In this document: piece after piece, positions 1,977 to 22,144 of the stretch
Position numbering within the stretch: position 1 is the stretch's first letter
Layout: every line of letters begins with the position of its first letter
Virus record (IMG/VR): IMGVR_UViG_3300030380_001028
Span: 1 to 39,206 of that record
DNA from: a virus
Length of the DNA stretch: 39,206 nucleotides
Direction: 5' to 3' (one strand)
Position numbers and translations under genes: made by a program
The notes under the pieces: generated by a model
What the model was told of the DNA's origin: nothing
Databases searched by the model: none
The model's input: only the letters and a program-made list of their open reading frames with translations

Positions 1977-2182
1977 AACCATCAGAAGCAGCAGAGATAG
2001 AAGCAAAGAAAACATTTGAACTGTTTATACTTTGGTCAAAGAGAGTTACTTTAGTAGCAATATTTTTTCTACTATTTGTAGTTTTTAAATGTAACAACGG
2101 AGTAGAGACAGGCAAAAGTGCAACAGGAAGTAAGTATAACGGTGAGGTGTACGCACCTACGAATATAGGAGAGGATAAATGA
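1973..2182 (+). CDS. small single-pass membrane protein (69 aa)
   Basis: The N-terminal 23 residues are charged and helical (MKPSEAAEIEAKKTFELF). A strong hydrophobic segment follows at about 26-43 (VTLVAIFFLLFVVF), then a polar tail rich in Gly, Asn and Lys. The layout suggests a tail-anchored inner-membrane protein with its N-terminus in the cytoplasm. Overlap with the upstream gene and with nrdJ (ATGA at 2179-2182) places it firmly in the operon. No family is recognised. A spanin or inhibitor role is possible but not supported by any motif. Confidence 0.7.
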   Translation: MKPSEAAEIEAKKTFELFILWSKRVTLVAIFFLLFVVFKCNNGVETGKSATGSKYNGEVYAPTNIGEDK

Positions 2183-4077
2183 GTAACTTATTACCAACGG
2201 ACTATCAATCATTCATACATCAATCACGCTACGCAAAGTACGTGGATGGCAAAGGCCGTGAGTCATGGGCTGAAACAGTAGGGCGCTACGTTGACAACGT
2301 GGTACGTCCAAAGCTAGGCAACGACTCGTGGGTTAATCAGATAGAGCAAGCTATACTTAACTTGGATGTAATGCCAAGCATGAGAGCCATGATGACTAGT
2401 GGTGCTGCGCTAGACAGAGACAACACAGCAGGGTACAACTGTAGTTATTTACCAGTTGATGACCCCAAGTCCTTCGATGAGGCTATGTTCATACTGTTGT
2501 GTGGTACAGGCGTAGGCTTCAGCGTGGAGCGTCAGTTTGTGCAGCAGCTACCAGAAGTACCTCAACTGTTTGACAGTGAGACTACCATCGTAGTTAAGGA
2601 TAGCAAAGAAGGTTGGGCTAAAGCATTCCGTCAACTGCTAGCATTACTATGGGCAGGTGAGATACCAAAGTGGAACGTATCAAAGGTCAGACCTGCAGGT
2701 GCTAGACTCAAAACATTTGGTGGTAGAGCTAGTGGACCTGGACCTCTTGTTGAGTTGTTTAACTTCTCAGTACAGACATTCAAGAATGCACAAGGCCGTA
2801 AGCTGTCCTCTATGGAGTGTCACGACTTGATGTGTTTCATCGGTCAGATAGTTGTAGTAGGTGGTGTCAGACGTAGTGCTATGATCTCTCTGTCTAACCT
2901 TAGTGATGATCGTATGCGTCACGCTAAGTCAGGGCAGTGGTGGGAGACAGCACCTCACAGAGCGTTGGCTAACAACTCTGTATCTTACACAGAGAAGCCA
3001 GACATAGAAACATTTATGCGTGAGTGGACTGCTCTAGTAGAAAGTAAGTCAGGTGAGAGAGGTATCTTTAATCGTGAAGCATCTAAAGCACAAGCTGCTA
3101 AGTATGGTAGACGTGATCCTGACTGGCAGTTCGGAACTAATCCATGTAGTGAAATCATACTTAGACCCTACCAGTTCTGTAATCTTACGGAGGTTGTTGT
3201 TCGTGCCACTGATACGGCTAAAGACTTGGAGCGCAAGGTCAAGATCGCCACAATACTTGGGACAATCCAAAGCTCGTACACAAAGTTTCCATACCTGCGT
3301 AAAGTGTGGCAACGTAATACTGAAGAAGAGAGATTGCTTGGTGTGTCTCTGACAGGTATCATGGACAACCCATTGATGACCTCAGTCAACTCTAACCTGG
3401 AGAAACTATTAGATGACTTACGAACTGTCTCTGTGGCTGTTAATAATGAATATGCTTCTCTGCTTGGTATACCTCAGTCTGCTGCTATTACCTGCGTCAA
3501 ACCTTCGGGTACTGTCTCGCAGTTGGTGGACAGTGCCAGTGGTATACATGCTCGTCACTCTCCATATTACATCCGTACTGTACGAGGTGATAATAAAGAT
3601 CCCCTTACACAGTTTATGATAGACAATGGTGTACCTAATGAGCCTTGTGTGTTCAAAGGAGATACCACTACAGTGTTTAGCTTTCCTGTCAGGTCACCAG
3701 AAAATGCTGTGACAAGAGAGAACATGAGTGCTATCGAGCAGCTAGAGACATGGCTTACATACCAACGCCATTGGTGTGAACACAAGCCTAGCGTAACCAT
3801 ATCGGTGCGTGATGATGAGTGGCTTGAGGTAGGTGCATTTGTTTACAAACACTTTGATGAAATGTCAGGTGTGTCATTTTTGCCACACTCAGATCATACC
3901 TATCAGCAAGCTCCTTATCAAGACTGCAGTAAAGAAGACTATGCAGAATTACTAAAGCTCATGCCAAAAAAGATTGACTGGAACAAACTTTCAGAGTATG
4001 AACAAGAAGACAATACAAAGTCCAGTCAAACATTTGCTTGCTCTGGTGACGTTTGTGAAGTAGTAGATATAACATAG
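2179..4077 (+). CDS. nrdJ: adenosylcobalamin-dependent (class II) ribonucleotide reductase
   Basis: This 632-residue enzyme reduces ribonucleotides to deoxyribonucleotides using a B12-derived radical and no oxygen-sensitive partner. All catalytic residues can be placed by spacing against the monomeric Lactobacillus leichmannii enzyme: C88 (C119 there), C323 in NPCSE (C408, thiyl radical), E325 (E410), C334 in FCNL (C419) and the C-terminal pair C621 and C626 in CSGDVC (C731, C736), which re-reduces the active site. Other family blocks are GGVRRSAM near 228 and KPSGTV near 441. It is about 100 residues shorter than the 739-residue reference, with roughly 54 of these lost between the first two catalytic cysteines. 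Host B12 uptake or synthesis is implied. MazG upstream complements it. Confidence 0.95.
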   Translation: MSNLLPTDYQSFIHQSRYAKYVDGKGRESWAETVGRYVDNVVRPKLGNDSWVNQIEQAILNLDVMPSMRAMMTSGAALDRDNTAGYNCSYLPVDDPKSFDEAMFILLCGTGVGFSVERQFVQQLPEVPQLFDSETTIVVKDSKEGWAKAFRQLLALLWAGEIPKWNVSKVRPAGARLKTFGGRASGPGPLVELFNFSVQTFKNAQGRKLSSMECHDLMCFIGQIVVVGGVRRSAMISLSNLSDDRMRHAKSGQWWETAPHRALANNSVSYTEKPDIETFMREWTALVESKSGERGIFNREASKAQAAKYGRRDPDWQFGTNPCSEIILRPYQFCNLTEVVVRATDTAKDLERKVKIATILGTIQSSYTKFPYLRKVWQRNTEEERLLGVSLTGIMDNPLMTSVNSNLEKLLDDLRTVSVAVNNEYASLLGIPQSAAITCVKPSGTVSQLVDSASGIHARHSPYYIRTVRGDNKDPLTQFMIDNGVPNEPCVFKGDTTTVFSFPVRSPENAVTRENMSAIEQLETWLTYQRHWCEHKPSVTISVRDDEWLEVGAFVYKHFDEMSGVSFLPHSDHTYQQAPYQDCSKEDYAELLKLMPKKIDWNKLSEYEQEDNTKSSQTFACSGDVCEVVDIT

Positions 4078-4226: not shown

Positions 4227-4423
4227 TGCCGTGGATTTTAATAGCAACTTTCTTCTTCAATGGAGAGCCTATGGTTATGAGTGACAATATTTTTTATGAC
4301 AATAAAGAACAGTGTCAAGCAGCAGTAAAGGTACGCAAAGAAATACTAGATGCTACTAGACCAGAGTATATGTCAGAAGCACAGTACTGGGTATGGTGTA
4401 CACAGATACCACAGGAGGTATAG
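4226..4423 (+). CDS. small secreted-like cysteine-pair protein (65 aa)
   Basis: The protein has a short hydrophobic N-terminus (PWILIATFFF), then a segment ending NKEQCQAA and a second cysteine near the end (WVWCTQ), 29 residues after the first. The pattern (hydrophobic start, aromatic strand, acidic or basic residue followed by EQC, then a distant Cys) recurs in the 68-residue protein at 37840-38046 in the late operon, so the two may be distant paralogues. A disulfide-bonded periplasmic protein is one reading. The hydrophobic stretch is too short for a confident signal peptide. Start is fused to the upstream stop (TAATG). Confidence 0.7.
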   Translation: MPWILIATFFFNGEPMVMSDNIFYDNKEQCQAAVKVRKEILDATRPEYMSEAQYWVWCTQIPQEV

Positions 4424-4424
4424 A

Positions 4425-5000
4425 GTGACTTGTTGTCAATATTGTAATGTAGAGTTAGTTCCAGGATTAAAAAGTGAAGGTGGTAACTGGAATCCACACT
4501 ACGTAAAATGTTCCTGGAATGTATGTAAATCTTGTTACAATAATAAATACTTGAATGGCTCTGAGGGATGGAATTTAAAAAGTAATCCTAAAAGGATGTA
4601 TGTTAATGGTAAGTACATACCAAAGTCACATCCATTATACAAACCTGGACGCTACAAAACTTTTAGTGATGCAGCCTTTGATGGTACGTATAAGTTAGAC
4701 TCTATTAAAGAAGGGTATGTATATGCGATAACTAATCCTGCTTGGCCTGAGTGGGTCAAGATAGGTATGGCTGTAGATGCTGACGATAGATGCAATGGCT
4801 ATCAGACTAGTAGTCCTTTCAGAGACTACAAAATAGAACACGTAGTTGTGACAAACAACAGACGTGCTGCTGAAGCAGAGGCACATAAGGTAGCAGCTAA
4901 GATAGCAAAAGAAGTAAGGGGGGAGTGGTTCAAGTTAGATATAGAACAAGCTAAAACTATACTGAACAACATAACTACAGACTTAGAAAAGACAGGTTAA
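4425..5000 (+). CDS. zinc-finger protein with T5orf172 (GIY-YIG-like) nuclease domain
   Basis: GTG at 4425 is chosen because AGGAGG at 4413-4418 sits six bases ahead of it; the longer frame from 4350 would run deep into the upstream gene. The 191-residue product starts with a cysteine cluster, C3, C4, C7, C29, C34 and C37 (CSWNVCKSC), probably zinc-binding and DNA-recognising. Residues 97-175 match the T5orf172/MUG113 relatives of GIY-YIG nucleases: GYVYAITNP, VKIGMAVDADDR (K112, G114, R122), then AEAEAH (E150 or E152) and GEWFKLD. Proteins of this kind act in DNA cleavage or as homing-type endonucleases. A position just past nrdJ fits either, since phage reductase genes often have such neighbours. 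Confidence 0.82.
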   Translation: MTCCQYCNVELVPGLKSEGGNWNPHYVKCSWNVCKSCYNNKYLNGSEGWNLKSNPKRMYVNGKYIPKSHPLYKPGRYKTFSDAAFDGTYKLDSIKEGYVYAITNPAWPEWVKIGMAVDADDRCNGYQTSSPFRDYKIEHVVVTNNRRAAEAEAHKVAAKIAKEVRGEWFKLDIEQAKTILNNITTDLEKTG

Positions 5001-17480: not shown

Positions 17481-20400
17481 TTACTGCCTATCATGTTGTC
17501 TGTACTCAAGCACTGCTGTGTCAAGAGTGAAGGTTGGATTTGTTGAATTATCTGTAATACGCATAGATACAGTTTTGAAAGAGCCTATTAGGTTTTCAAA
17601 AAACACTTTATCTAAACTGCCACCGTATGTACCTGTACCGTACAAAGAGTTTGGAGAACCAAATACAAATACACCACTAGCAGTTGGGGTAATAAAAGTC
17701 AAGTTAGTATTGTCTGTAAGAGTTACTGCTGTATCTAGAACAATGTTCTGTTGATTTGTTACCCCTGTTACCTTTACAGTTCCTGATATACCTGTTCCTA
17801 CAACTATTTGACCTACCAAAATATTTCCTGAATTATTGTCTACAGCCAAAGTTGAACTTGATGTAACTGTACCATTGACAATAGCAGTTGCAGTTGTACT
17901 ACCTGCTGTAGATATGTTTATCTTAGGAGGTTGTACTACAGAGAAATCATTTGATGAATCAAAGTCTAAGTTAAACTGCACATCCAGATTCATTTGTCCA
18001 GTAGGTTCTGCATAAAGTGTTAGCTTGTATAAAGTTTTTCTTAACTGGGAATCTGTTATGGGCATGTAAGGAGATTCATAGATAGATTCAATTTTCTCAC
18101 TATCAAAAGAATTGCCTGAATCCATTTCATAACAGAAGCCATCATTATTGGCAAACATAACTACTTCATCTGATCCTGCATAAGTACTATCTGCAACGTT
18201 AGCTTTTATGCCTTTAGTTGTAGCCCAACTTATACCTTCGCCACCCTGCGATATAAATTTAGTTGCAATTAAACCTTGAGCAATAGACTTTTGAACAGAG
18301 GGTAAGTATGAAAATATTCTGTACTGTGATTTGTTTCTAACTAATACAGAGCAAAAATTATCCGTTTGTGCAATAAAGTCTTTTGCATCATTAACTATAC
18401 TGTCTGAGGCTACGTCTAATGCAAAGTCACCAATACGATCTGTAGCACCTAAGAGCCTAATACCATCTGGTGAAAGATAAATTATGTCTCCACCAAATTC
18501 TTGTATTGTGTCTGAGTTAGTACATCCTATCTTGTCTGTTATAGGCTCAAGGGTAAAGTCAGACGCAGTATTACCTACTAATCTTTTTATTGTGTCCGTT
18601 GTAAATATGATAAGCTGCTCACGAAATACTATCATACCTGTTATATCGTTTGCAACATTTATAGTACCTGCACCATTGGCTACACTAAAGTCATCTATGG
18701 TAGCTGGTGCTGTAAAAAATATGTTATGACCCTTGGCAAAAAATGCTGTGTTCTTAAATATTACAGCGTTGTCTGAGCCTTCTATATCAGCAGAATCTGA
18801 AGAAGACATAAACGACATAGTATTAGCAGCAGATTCGTATATACCAGGATAGCCTTTACCGTCAACAAATAAAGTCTTTTCTACTCCTGTAAAATTAAAA
18901 CTAAAGTGTCTTGACTTTAAAGTGTTTGTAGCTGTACTAGTTCCTATCTGCGTCCAGTCTGTTCCTGTTCCGTAGAAATATACTGTCTTACCAACCTGAC
19001 TAGAAGAGAATGTACCAAAAGTAAAAACAGTATTATCTGCAAAGTTGGCATTTGTTTGACCACTAGATAAAGTCATACTGTTTTGATCTGCTGCTATGGT
19101 AGCAACGGTAACATCACCACTAATACCTGTACCTGTCACAAACATGCCTACTTTTATATTAGTGATAAAACTAAGAGCGACATTGTCTGCTAAGGATACT
19201 GCTGTGTCTAATACAATAGCAGTCTGACTAGTTACTGTTTTTACTGTAACTGTACCAGTAATACCTGTACCTGTTACAAGCATCCCTTTAGTAATAGTAC
19301 CAAATGCTGCACCAGTACCAGCTATGCTTATGCCTGTTATCGGACCTGTAGTTACAGCCGTACCTGCGATACCTACAGTTGCTACTGTGCCTGTTACTAT
19401 AGCAGTTCCTGCGATACTTGCAGTAGCTATAGTACCTGATATTACAGATGTTCCTGCTATTGTAACTGCTGTTATTGCGCCTGATCCATCTACTGTACTT
19501 ACAGTTATTGTCGCATCATTAGCAGTGGTAGCACCATCTAATTGTGTACCTACAATAGTAATTGTTTCACCTACTGCGTATCCTGAACCTGCAGCACCTA
19601 TGGCTACTGTATATGTACCTGCATCTCTGGTAACATTAAATGTAGCACTAGTACCAGAACCCCCATATCCAGATTGAGTAGGGTTAGTATAAGTTTGAGA
19701 AACGCTGTTCACACTGCCTATGGTTATAGTTGCGTCATTAGCAGTAGTAGCACCGTCTAACTGTGTACCAACTACTGTGATAGTTTCTCCTACTTTGTAT
19801 CCGCTAGTACCTGCGTTAGCAATAGCAACGCTATAAGAACCACTACTTCTAGTAATATTAAATGTAGCATTAGTACCAGAGCCACCGTATCCAGACTGAT
19901 TTGGATTTGTGTGGGTAACAGCAACGTTGTTTATACTATTTATTGTGACAGTTGCATCATTAGCAGTAGTAGCTCCTCCTAATGCCGTACCAGCTACAGT
20001 AAGAGTTTCTCCAACTTTGTAGCCACCAGTACCTGCGTTACCAATAGCTACACTATATGAACCGCCATTTCTAGTAACATTAATAAGAAGACCAGTACCA
20101 CCTCCACTATATGTGTAAGCTGCACTGCTGTAGAGAACACTAGCAGCCACACTTGTAACTGTCGCTGTTAAGTCGTTAGCTGTGCTAGCACCGCCTAAAT
20201 TAGTACCAGCTATTACTACTGTCTCGTTAACAGCATAGTCAGCCCCTCCTGCATTCACCGTTGCTGCATAAGTGCCATTTGTATTTGTTACATCAAAGGT
20301 AGCACTAGTGCCATTTCCTGAAGCAGTACCTGTTACTGCAGTAAAAGGACGTACTCTGTCTACTACTACGTTTTTTGTTGAAGTGGTAGCACCATTGACT

Positions 20401-21455
20401 ACTGCAGTGGCTCTGTTATTATCTAGAGTTACTGTAGACGAAGAACCAACAGTTGCGATACTCCAGCCCATGCCAGAATGCGAGGAACAATAGTAGAACA
20501 ATGGAGGCGCACCCAGCGCAACAGTTATCTCAGTATACGCTCCTGAGCTACCTGGAGTTCCTACTACTGTTACACCTGTTGTATACTGTGTACCTGCAGG
20601 TGAAGCATGTGTACCATTTGCTGTAGTACTAAAACGTAAGGGATGTCCAGCGTTACTTGAAGCACTTTGATCAAACCTATATGTAGCTCCCTCGTTTAAA
20701 CTTAGTGCAACATCTGCTGTAGCGGTAGACCCACCGATAGCATATTTATTTGTAGATCCTACATTGTAGTAAGGGTGGTTTGCTGGGTTACCTGATACTA
20801 CTGTAACTACAAAAGTACTAGTGGTGGTAGTAATACTATTACCCATAGCATTACCATGCGTAACGCAGTAGTATAGAGCAGGTTCCGTACCAGAAGTAGG
20901 CATAACAATAGTTACAGTTGCACCACTACTACCTGCTGTTCCTGATGATGTAACTCCTGAAGTAAACGCTGAACCACCTGCGTCTTTAAAACCTAAAGGG
21001 TGACCTGATACACTACTATCTGAAACATCAAATACATAAGTAAAGCCTCTGTTTAATGTTAATGCAGGTGCGGTAACACCATTGAAAGCAAACTTATCTT
21101 GACCACTATCATTTACAACTGTCACTGTGTAATTTACAACAGTATTACTAGTATTGTTAACAGTAGAGGTAGCTGTCTGAAACTCTGTTAAAGTAGAATT
21201 ATCTATCTGCCTAGCTACCACAGCCCTGCCTGAAGATACAACTTTTAATGCTTTTATATCTCCTGACCCAGGAACTTCTGTATCACTAAACTTAGAAAAA
21301 CCTTTTAGCTTACTGTATCCTCCCTCTTTGTTTGCCTCAAAATTTTGAAGAACAGTAGCAGAACCTATAGCATTTATACCTTGCTGCAAAGGAGTTAGGT
21401 TAGAGATCAATCCACCCTTGAACTCCATAGGAAATGTAGACCATTGTGTTGGCAT
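17481..21455 (-). CDS. nozzle-like tail protein with tandem cupredoxin domains and repeat insertions (1324 aa)
   Basis: The ends look like a phage tail nozzle or DNA-stabilising protein: residues 1-90 (EFKGGLISNLTPLQQGINA, NFEANKEGGY) and about 855-1170 (DGKGYPGIYES, PDGIRLLGATDRIGDFALDV). A gp11-like adaptor lies immediately upstream, as in T7 gp11-gp12. Between them about 770 residues are inserted. Two cupredoxin-like domains (107-209 and 213-335) carry complete type 1 copper ligand sets: H152, C197, H200, M204 and H271, C323, H326, M329. Four beta repeats of about 70-75 residues (378-655) follow, then four 15-residue repeats (661-720). Two copies of a GTGI module (721-764 and 766-813) precede the core, with a third near the C-terminus (1212-1255). 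Nozzle identity is inferred; the domains are clear. Confidence 0.75.
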   Translation of the reverse strand: MPTQWSTFPMEFKGGLISNLTPLQQGINAIGSATVLQNFEANKEGGYSKLKGFSKFSDTEVPGSGDIKALKVVSSGRAVVARQIDNSTLTEFQTATSTVNNTSNTVVNYTVTVVNDSGQDKFAFNGVTAPALTLNRGFTYVFDVSDSSVSGHPLGFKDAGGSAFTSGVTSSGTAGSSGATVTIVMPTSGTEPALYYCVTHGNAMGNSITTTTSTFVVTVVSGNPANHPYYNVGSTNKYAIGGSTATADVALSLNEGATYRFDQSASSNAGHPLRFSTTANGTHASPAGTQYTTGVTVVGTPGSSGAYTEITVALGAPPLFYYCSSHSGMGWSIATVGSSSTVTLDNNRATAVVNGATTSTKNVVVDRVRPFTAVTGTASGNGTSATFDVTNTNGTYAATVNAGGADYAVNETVVIAGTNLGGASTANDLTATVTSVAASVLYSSAAYTYSGGGTGLLINVTRNGGSYSVAIGNAGTGGYKVGETLTVAGTALGGATTANDATVTINSINNVAVTHTNPNQSGYGGSGTNATFNITRSSGSYSVAIANAGTSGYKVGETITVVGTQLDGATTANDATITIGSVNSVSQTYTNPTQSGYGGSGTSATFNVTRDAGTYTVAIGAAGSGYAVGETITIVGTQLDGATTANDATITVSTVDGSGAITAVTIAGTSVISGTIATASIAGTAIVTGTVATVGIAGTAVTTGPITGISIAGTGAAFGTITKGMLVTGTGITGTVTVKTVTSQTAIVLDTAVSLADNVALSFITNIKVGMFVTGTGISGDVTVATIAADQNSMTLSSGQTNANFADNTVFTFGTFSSSQVGKTVYFYGTGTDWTQIGTSTATNTLKSRHFSFNFTGVEKTLFVDGKGYPGIYESAANTMSFMSSSDSADIEGSDNAVIFKNTAFFAKGHNIFFTAPATIDDFSVANGAGTINVANDITGMIVFREQLIIFTTDTIKRLVGNTASDFTLEPITDKIGCTNSDTIQEFGGDIIYLSPDGIRLLGATDRIGDFALDVASDSIVNDAKDFIAQTDNFCSVLVRNKSQYRIFSYLPSVQKSIAQGLIATKFISQGGEGISWATTKGIKANVADSTYAGSDEVVMFANNDGFCYEMDSGNSFDSEKIESIYESPYMPITDSQLRKTLYKLTLYAEPTGQMNLDVQFNLDFDSSNDFSVVQPPKINISTAGSTTATAIVNGTVTSSSTLAVDNNSGNILVGQIVVGTGISGTVKVTGVTNQQNIVLDTAVTLTDNTNLTFITPTASGVFVFGSPNSLYGTGTYGGSLDKVFFENLIGSFKTVSMRITDNSTNPTFTLDTAVLEYRQHDRQ
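19491..20324 (-). repeat. four tandem beta-domain repeats within nozzle-like gene
   Basis: Four units of about 70-75 residues (protein positions 378-655) share G-T-x-A-T-F-x-V-T-R, a Gly-Tyr-x-V-G-E-T stretch and a GGATTAND or DGATTAND block. Units three and four are the most alike, also at DNA level, suggesting recent duplication. They are probably immunoglobulin-like or small beta-sandwich domains that extend the tail protein. Confidence 0.75.
20451..21137 (-). other. tandem cupredoxin-like domains within the nozzle-like gene
   Basis: Domain 1 (residues 107-209) has H152 in SGHPLGF and then C197, H200 and M204 in YYCVTHGNAMG. Domain 2 (213-335) has H271 in AGHPLRF and C323, H326 and M329 in YYCSSHSGMG. 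Order and spacing match type 1 copper sites: His, about 45-52 residues, then C-X2-H-X2/3-M, as in plastocyanin and amicyanin. Both are preceded by a TLNRG/SLNEG strand with the aromatic TYVFD or TYRFD. Confidence 0.8.
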
Positions 21456-22144
21456 TAGAAGTGTACTCTCGTGTCTCTTATGTACGGTGTTCTATTTATA
21501 TTGATAGTACGTAGATTTTTAATCTGTTGTTGGAACTTGTTAAGTGCTACTTCAGAAGCACCTGTGTCCCCTCTAAATTGAAAAGTGTAATACATTGCAC
21601 CGTCTACTATAGCAAATCTATACTGCTCTGGCAAGGCTGGTACGTCTAGTGCATTTTCTAAGTCGTAACCTGCTGAGTAATATTCGTAAACTATAGTGTA
21701 AGCTTTGTCAGGCACAGGATGACATAACAATTCTCTGCCAGGAGTTCTTACAATAAACTTCGGTACACCACGTATGTCTGCTGAGTTGTTAAATTCATCA
21801 TCTGCATACTTTTCTAGCCATTCTTCATATACTAAATGCTTTAGTTTTTCTGTTCCTACATTAAGAGTGTTATCTCTTTTTATACGAAAGGAGTTCATGT
21901 TTATTGTTTTTGCATCTGAAGGATAAAAGTATTTCATAGCACCTGCAGCTAGTACAAGATCTGACTGCACATGGTTCCAAGGCCATTCAAACTCTTCTTG
22001 ATTTATGTGTCGTATCGCAGCGTTGACTGAATCTTTTGCGACATTATAGTAACCTACAGCAGTAGCGAAGTTTGTACTGTCTAAAGCAACTTCATTCAAT
22101 CTAGAATTAACATCGTTAACTAAGCCAAGAAAATCGTAAGCCAT
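21455..22144 (-). CDS. head-tail adaptor / tail tubular protein A-like (gp11-like)
   Basis: A 229-residue protein of the adaptor type that in T7-like phages joins portal to nozzle. It opens with helical DFLGLVNDVNSRLNEVAL and has the tryptophan-rich element FEWPWNHVQSDL. Beta segments with KHLVYEEWLEKYADD lead to a C-terminal helical section (FQFRGDTGASEVALNKFQ) and the ending NINRTPYIRD. Its start is three bases below the stop of the 107-residue gene, and its stop overlaps the start of the nozzle-like gene (ATGC junction at 21455). The match is by architecture and order, so the label is probable rather than certain. Confidence 0.7.
   Translation of the reverse strand: MAYDFLGLVNDVNSRLNEVALDSTNFATAVGYYNVAKDSVNAAIRHINQEEFEWPWNHVQSDLVLAAGAMKYFYPSDAKTINMNSFRIKRDNTLNVGTEKLKHLVYEEWLEKYADDEFNNSADIRGVPKFIVRTPGRELLCHPVPDKAYTIVYEYYSAGYDLENALDVPALPEQYRFAIVDGAMYYTFQFRGDTGASEVALNKFQQQIKNLRTININRTPYIRDTRVHF

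Follow-up and report, generated by a model that had tools for sequence, protein, structure and literature searches.

The window analysed here is the whole stretch of 39,206 bases from an IMG/VR virus record. It encodes a terminase, an SU10-type portal, a major head protein and an SU10-type adaptor, and its proteins find their matches in HMO-2011-type podoviruses. The gene of interest encodes a large protein whose body is homologous to the tail structure proteins of CRP-207, CRP-345 and HMO-2011, and the adaptor gene that adjoins it places the product in the tail. With a homologous body and a neighboring tail adaptor gene, the protein belongs with the nozzle or tail structure proteins of the HMO-2011 type, bearing out the nozzle-like tail assignment made in the initial annotation of this DNA. 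A sequence search of the PDB with the nozzle body found no relative. The same body (17481-21455; L098 4527-6035) carries the label 'amidase' in PHROGs (phrog_5107) as well as in HMO-2011, and two phage records call it 'dimodular nonribosomal peptide synthetase'; these labels look wrong, since no such Pfam domain was found. Elsewhere in the window, a 216-aa ORF with a T5orf172/MUG113 domain (4350-5000), possibly a homing-type endonuclease, lies beside a ribonucleotide reductase gene (2179-4077).

Table 1. Features of the carrier gene, its predicted cupredoxin domains and their candidate copper ligands. Positions are those of the window.
Feature	Position	Strand	Basis
Nozzle-type tail protein, 1324 aa, carrier of both cupredoxin domains	17481..21455	-	ORF; body homology to HMO-2011-type tail structure proteins
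SU10-type head-tail adaptor gene, directly upstream of carrier gene	21455..22144	-	PF24175, E 2.9e-16
Insertion, residues 98-823 of carrier, with two cupredoxins and beta-rich repeats	18987..21164	-	blastp vs CRP-207 gp47
Predicted cupredoxin domain 1, residues 105-215	20811..21143	-	AlphaFold2 pLDDT 95.8, pTM 0.88; Foldseek PDB
Predicted cupredoxin domain 2, residues 212-342	20430..20822	-	two-domain AlphaFold2 model; Foldseek PDB
H152 codon, domain 1 ligand residue	21000..21002	-	
Domain 1 ligand loop C197-x2-H200-x3-M204 (CVTHGNAM)	20844..20867	-	
H271 codon, domain 2 ligand residue	20643..20645	-	
Domain 2 ligand loop C323-x2-H326-x2-M329 (CSSHSGM)	20469..20489	-	

The carrier is built as a conserved nozzle body interrupted by a long insertion. 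Alignment by blastp to CRP-207 gp47, a tail structure protein of 512 residues, pairs carrier residues 1-98 with gp47 residues 1-97 and residues 824-1324 with 89-512, at 51% identity over 501 columns and 69% in the N-terminus. The two proteins thus share the nozzle body at both ends, but gp47 is without the 725-residue insertion that bears the cupredoxins. Nozzle ORFs of the CRP-207 kind in IMG/VR span 484-553 residues. Among siblings of the carrier, one (L091) has two cupredoxins at positions that differ from those seen here, and two others of 1004 aa (L089, 1360-4371; L090, 475-3486) have a long insertion with no cupredoxin. Since the insertion is this variable among nozzle siblings, it is most easily explained as an exposed loop. 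The same insertion contains tandem repeats of ~222 nt (74 aa) that are 60-81% identical (19504-20240), a region that also matches phrog_697 and phrog_32294 (structural and baseplate proteins). In a close relative a single in-frame TGA (L087 5039-5041) breaks the nozzle ORF, the frame resuming directly after it, which reflects either a sequencing error or a split gene.

The initial annotation had placed two tandem cupredoxin domains over an interval (20451-21137, minus strand) that corresponds exactly to residues 107-335 of the ORF. All eight of its ligand residues are found where it put them, and its distances from the first His to the Cys, 45 residues in domain 1 and 52 in domain 2, were recovered from the translation. 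Each domain has the four ligands in the order His...Cys-x(n)-His-x(n)-Met. The whole carrier has only 5 Cys and 10 His, with one Cys per domain, and a chance origin of the motifs can be ruled out: in 200,000 composition shuffles of the ORF, at least one C-x2-H-x2/3-M motif arose in 180 and two arose in none. Both domains have Pro directly after the first ligand His, as do 32 of 37 copies of the family, a feature that resembles the type 1 sites of multicopper oxidases. The ligand loop of plastocyanin is C-x2-H-x4-M, so the loop is of amicyanin length in domain 2 only, and is intermediate in domain 1, a small correction to the initial annotation.

Structure prediction points to a cupredoxin fold. 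For the two-domain AlphaFold2 model, computed from 37 sequences, the mean pLDDT is 82.4, and domain 1 modelled alone is a confident beta-sandwich (Table 1). Foldseek searches of the PDB with the two-domain model put copper nitrite reductases, laccases, CueO and related cupredoxin-fold proteins at the top (best E 5.5e-6). The best match of domain 1 is the three-domain nitrite reductase of Hyphomicrobium, a moderate match at a query-normalised TM score of 0.63, and the later matches are mainly other copper proteins, with a Shewanella peptidase (SO1698) among them. In the domain 1 model the penultimate strand ends with the Cys, the His comes just ahead of the last strand, and the Met falls in the early part of that strand, a predicted arrangement that fits cupredoxin topology. 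AlphaFold2 and Foldseek together thus give both domains a predicted Greek-key beta-sandwich of the cupredoxin type, as the initial annotation had supposed; we hold with high confidence that both are cupredoxins.

The resemblance to known copper proteins at the level of sequence is essentially that of the metal site. Neither the window nor any of 37 family members matches PF00127 or another Pfam copper family; one P-HM2 copy scores 19.3 bits against PF00127, below the cut-off of 21.2, and the NCBIfam amicyanin model is touched by one member of the 37 (E 0.045). Because no family member reaches the Pfam copper families, we gathered for comparison 31 PF00127 domains, taken almost entirely from bacterial genomes, in which no columns but those of H, C, H and M are invariant. 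Aligned to these by hhalign, the phage family matches with the four ligands in register (E 9.2e-5, probability 59%), and control profiles that were reversed or column-shuffled give no match. The match is gone once the ligand columns are masked, so that the evidence for the fold comes from structure prediction.

The best fold matches, the copper nitrite reductases (the three-domain enzyme of Hyphomicrobium denitrificans, PDB 2dv6 and 6tfo) and the two-domain laccases, share a tandem cupredoxin fold with the phage domains; the phage domains differ, however, in their low identity to these enzymes (~10-18%), their short ligand loop, their lack of type 2/3 His clusters and their place in a phage tail protein. 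There is no HxH in the carrier, which rules out both a multicopper oxidase, whose type 2/3 His pairs are absent, and an HxH iron-binding tail fibre. The T4 gp37 fibre, which is of this latter kind, is like the carrier in having a metal-site motif in a phage tail protein, a predicted one in our case, but its fold, ligands and metal are all different. The small blue copper proteins of PF00127 (plastocyanin, amicyanin, pseudoazurin) have the H...C-x2-H...M signature and its order in common with the phage domains, and the amicyanin loop, C-x2-H-x2-M, is the loop of domain 2. In contrast to them, the phage domains fall below the Pfam threshold, follow the first His with Pro and not with the Asn that is usual, though not universal, in PF00127, and are embedded in a large virion protein where PF00127 proteins are free in the periplasm or thylakoid. 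The plastocyanin and amicyanin parallel of the initial annotation is thus sound for ligand order, but these proteins are approximate models only, given that the nearest folds are nitrite reductases and laccases and that the first His is followed by Pro.

Conservation of the ligands was followed in 186 copies reduced to 37 at <70% mutual identity, a set partly gathered via peptide patterns that include the motif. The full ligand set is kept in 35 of these 37 diverse copies, and the ligands are among the most conserved columns; retention of the site in most homologues, on which the initial annotation had made its reading depend, is what we find. In a set unbiased by the motif, drawn from phage records by tblastn, the site is complete in 25 of 33 copies, and a copy with all four ligands is present in 20 of 22 phage records. 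The losses mostly concern second copies (P-HM2 gp7, S-H9-1, Syn1, S-H9-2, S-CAM22 and ACG-2014h). Two phages, S-SZBM1 and P-RSM6, have kept the first His and lost the Cys-His-Met loop, and these partial losses weaken the strict all-or-none pattern suggested by the 37-copy set. Since some copies, mostly second ones, are without most or all of the ligands, the fold can serve without metal. Against two relatives at 94% identity the carrier has a dN/dS of ~0.08, indicating purifying selection, and in one of the two relatives two ligand codons differ by synonymous changes only.

The family is widespread in ocean phages. One S-TIM5 copy used as a query matches 274 of 50,697 phage records, all of them marine-type by name: phages of Synechococcus, Prochlorococcus, Pelagibacter and Methylophilales and cyanophages, together with three 'Marine virus' records, one uncultured phage and one 'phage' record from seawater. 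The carriers are annotated as tail fibre, tail spike, gp9 fibre connector, gp7 baseplate or virion structural protein, and it is from annotations such as the last that we take them to be present in virions. In the T7-type fibres of Baldr, HTVC028P and MedDCM-S30-C28 the domain lies near the C-terminus, at 85-87% of fibre length. The two domains of the window fall into different supported clades of the tree, which rules out a recent tandem duplication and means that they were probably acquired separately. The P-HM2 protein PHM2_106 (L265 808-6291), of 1827 aa, has two cupredoxin copies and is annotated with PF07686 (Ig V-set); its second copy (TYSYICGIHSSMKGTITV) looks intermediate between the phage family and ordinary PF00127 copper proteins.

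Relatives also occur in bacterial genomes. A genome scan with domain 2 alone found none, and a scan with an alignment as query found 17, some of which are phage-like proteins inside assembled bacterial genomes. Among the bacterial relatives are proteins of Actinomarina and SAR86 that have lipoprotein-like N-termini and by their sequences look secreted. In Candidatus Actinomarina (L145 1899-5166; L146; L142) a lipoprotein-like protein carries a Thr-rich stalk and a C-terminal cupredoxin of the phage-tail family. Its gene lies near that of a cytochrome b561, with an FAD/NAD oxidoreductase also near in L145 and L146, and the locus is possibly an uncharacterised surface electron-transfer system.

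We propose that the two domains are cupredoxins of the type 1 copper type, accessory modules that would be displayed at the surface in a loop of the tail nozzle, and we consider it likely, as the predicted sites suggest, that they bind copper. Free copper in the cytoplasm is kept extremely low. Since tails assemble there, virions would be put together in a copper-poor host cytoplasm with their sites empty, and loading would be likelier after lysis or at the next host, the copper coming from seawater or from the envelope of that host. On the short tail, the loaded domains could then serve as rigid modules for adhesion or for contact with a receptor. An adhesion-type placement is suggested by the absence of the insertion from close relatives and its variability among siblings, by the position of the domain at fibre C-termini and by the spike, gp9 and gp7 carriers; we infer surface display, post-lysis loading and the adhesive role from considerations of this kind. 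A surface-displayed, copper-loaded adhesion module is the best explanation we can offer, and we adopt it tentatively; surface adhesion as the main role of the domains is likewise a possibility that we favor with reserve. Counting against this explanation are the confinement of the sequence link to the site itself, the moderate TM score, the existence of ligand-less copies and the two nozzle siblings (L089 and L090) without a cupredoxin.

Other readings of the domains have to be set against the adhesion module. An immunoglobulin-like (V-set) fold, in which the Cys of the YYC motif would be the C-terminal Cys of an Ig domain, is suggested by the PDB sequence search with the cupredoxin domain, which found nothing convincing but listed antibody chains first (weak matches at E >=0.005), and by the PF07686 annotation on the two-copy protein of P-HM2. 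But a single Cys per domain makes the Ig disulphide impossible, Ig domains have no conserved H, H and M, and with both models the leading Foldseek hits are copper proteins; the lone Cys and the Foldseek result rule out a V-set domain in the main, and we give it scarcely any credence. Type 1 sites are normally sites of electron transfer, and the Candidatus Actinomarina relative is encoded near cytochrome b561 and FAD/NAD oxidoreductase genes, so that one might imagine a redox sensor or trigger: the nozzle would change, and ejection would be primed, once the copper is reduced at the host envelope or electrons pass between the two sites. The structure of a type 1 site barely changes on reduction, however, the domain is far from the ejection gate in most carriers (fibres and baseplate proteins), and there is no known partner. 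We judge such a trigger very improbable. A more serious alternative is that the domains are structural only, interchangeable beta-domains that lengthen or decorate tail proteins and in which any metal just staples the fold. The cupredoxins do stand beside beta-rich repeats in the insertion, degenerate copies persist alongside complete ones, some nozzle siblings manage without a cupredoxin, and structural iron in the T4 gp37 fibre tip provides a precedent (PMC11705849). Yet conservation of the four ligands equals that of the best core positions, and a pure scaffold would have no need of this; moreover, a lone unpaired Cys on an exposed domain would be costly unless used. A purely structural role is therefore unlikely in our estimation, although it keeps an appreciable share of the probability.

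A further rival to the adhesion module is that the loaded domain would mimic a copper carrier and dock to a copper uptake receptor in the host outer membrane. OprC, a TonB-dependent copper transporter of Pseudomonas aeruginosa, is bound by the cupredoxin azurin (PMC6907878), and an iron Trojan Horse hypothesis has been proposed for marine phages with HxH iron-binding tail fibres (PMC11705849); by analogy, azurin-OprC and tail-fibre iron offer precedents for both halves of the copper-docking idea, and the domains do occur at fibre tips. Set against this, no carrier has a known receptor, the hosts are as varied as Pelagibacter, Methylophilales and cyanobacteria, and degenerate copies are present, all of which makes docking of this kind improbable. 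The wider proposal, that copper-loaded type 1 domains on many ocean phage tails recognise the host surface, possibly via copper uptake receptors, as a copper counterpart of the iron Trojan Horse, is to our mind a long shot as well.

The fold and the site are themselves already known; what appears to be new is their recurrence as a tail module of ocean phages, which we did not find described in the open-access literature. Our search of that literature, which did not cover subscription papers, returned no paper on cupredoxins or copper domains in phage tails. Existing annotation hides the family under such names as Ig V-set, tail fibre or unnamed structural protein, and Pfam has no match for it. 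A complete copper-type site with relatives across many ocean phages implies that the tails of these viruses may be copper-bearing. Should the sites bind the metal, a tail module widespread in ocean phages would be a copper protein, and many unassigned virion proteins would become open to a simple assay of color and metal content. Phages would then also gain a place in marine copper chemistry, and their adsorption would include a metal-dependent step that can be tested.
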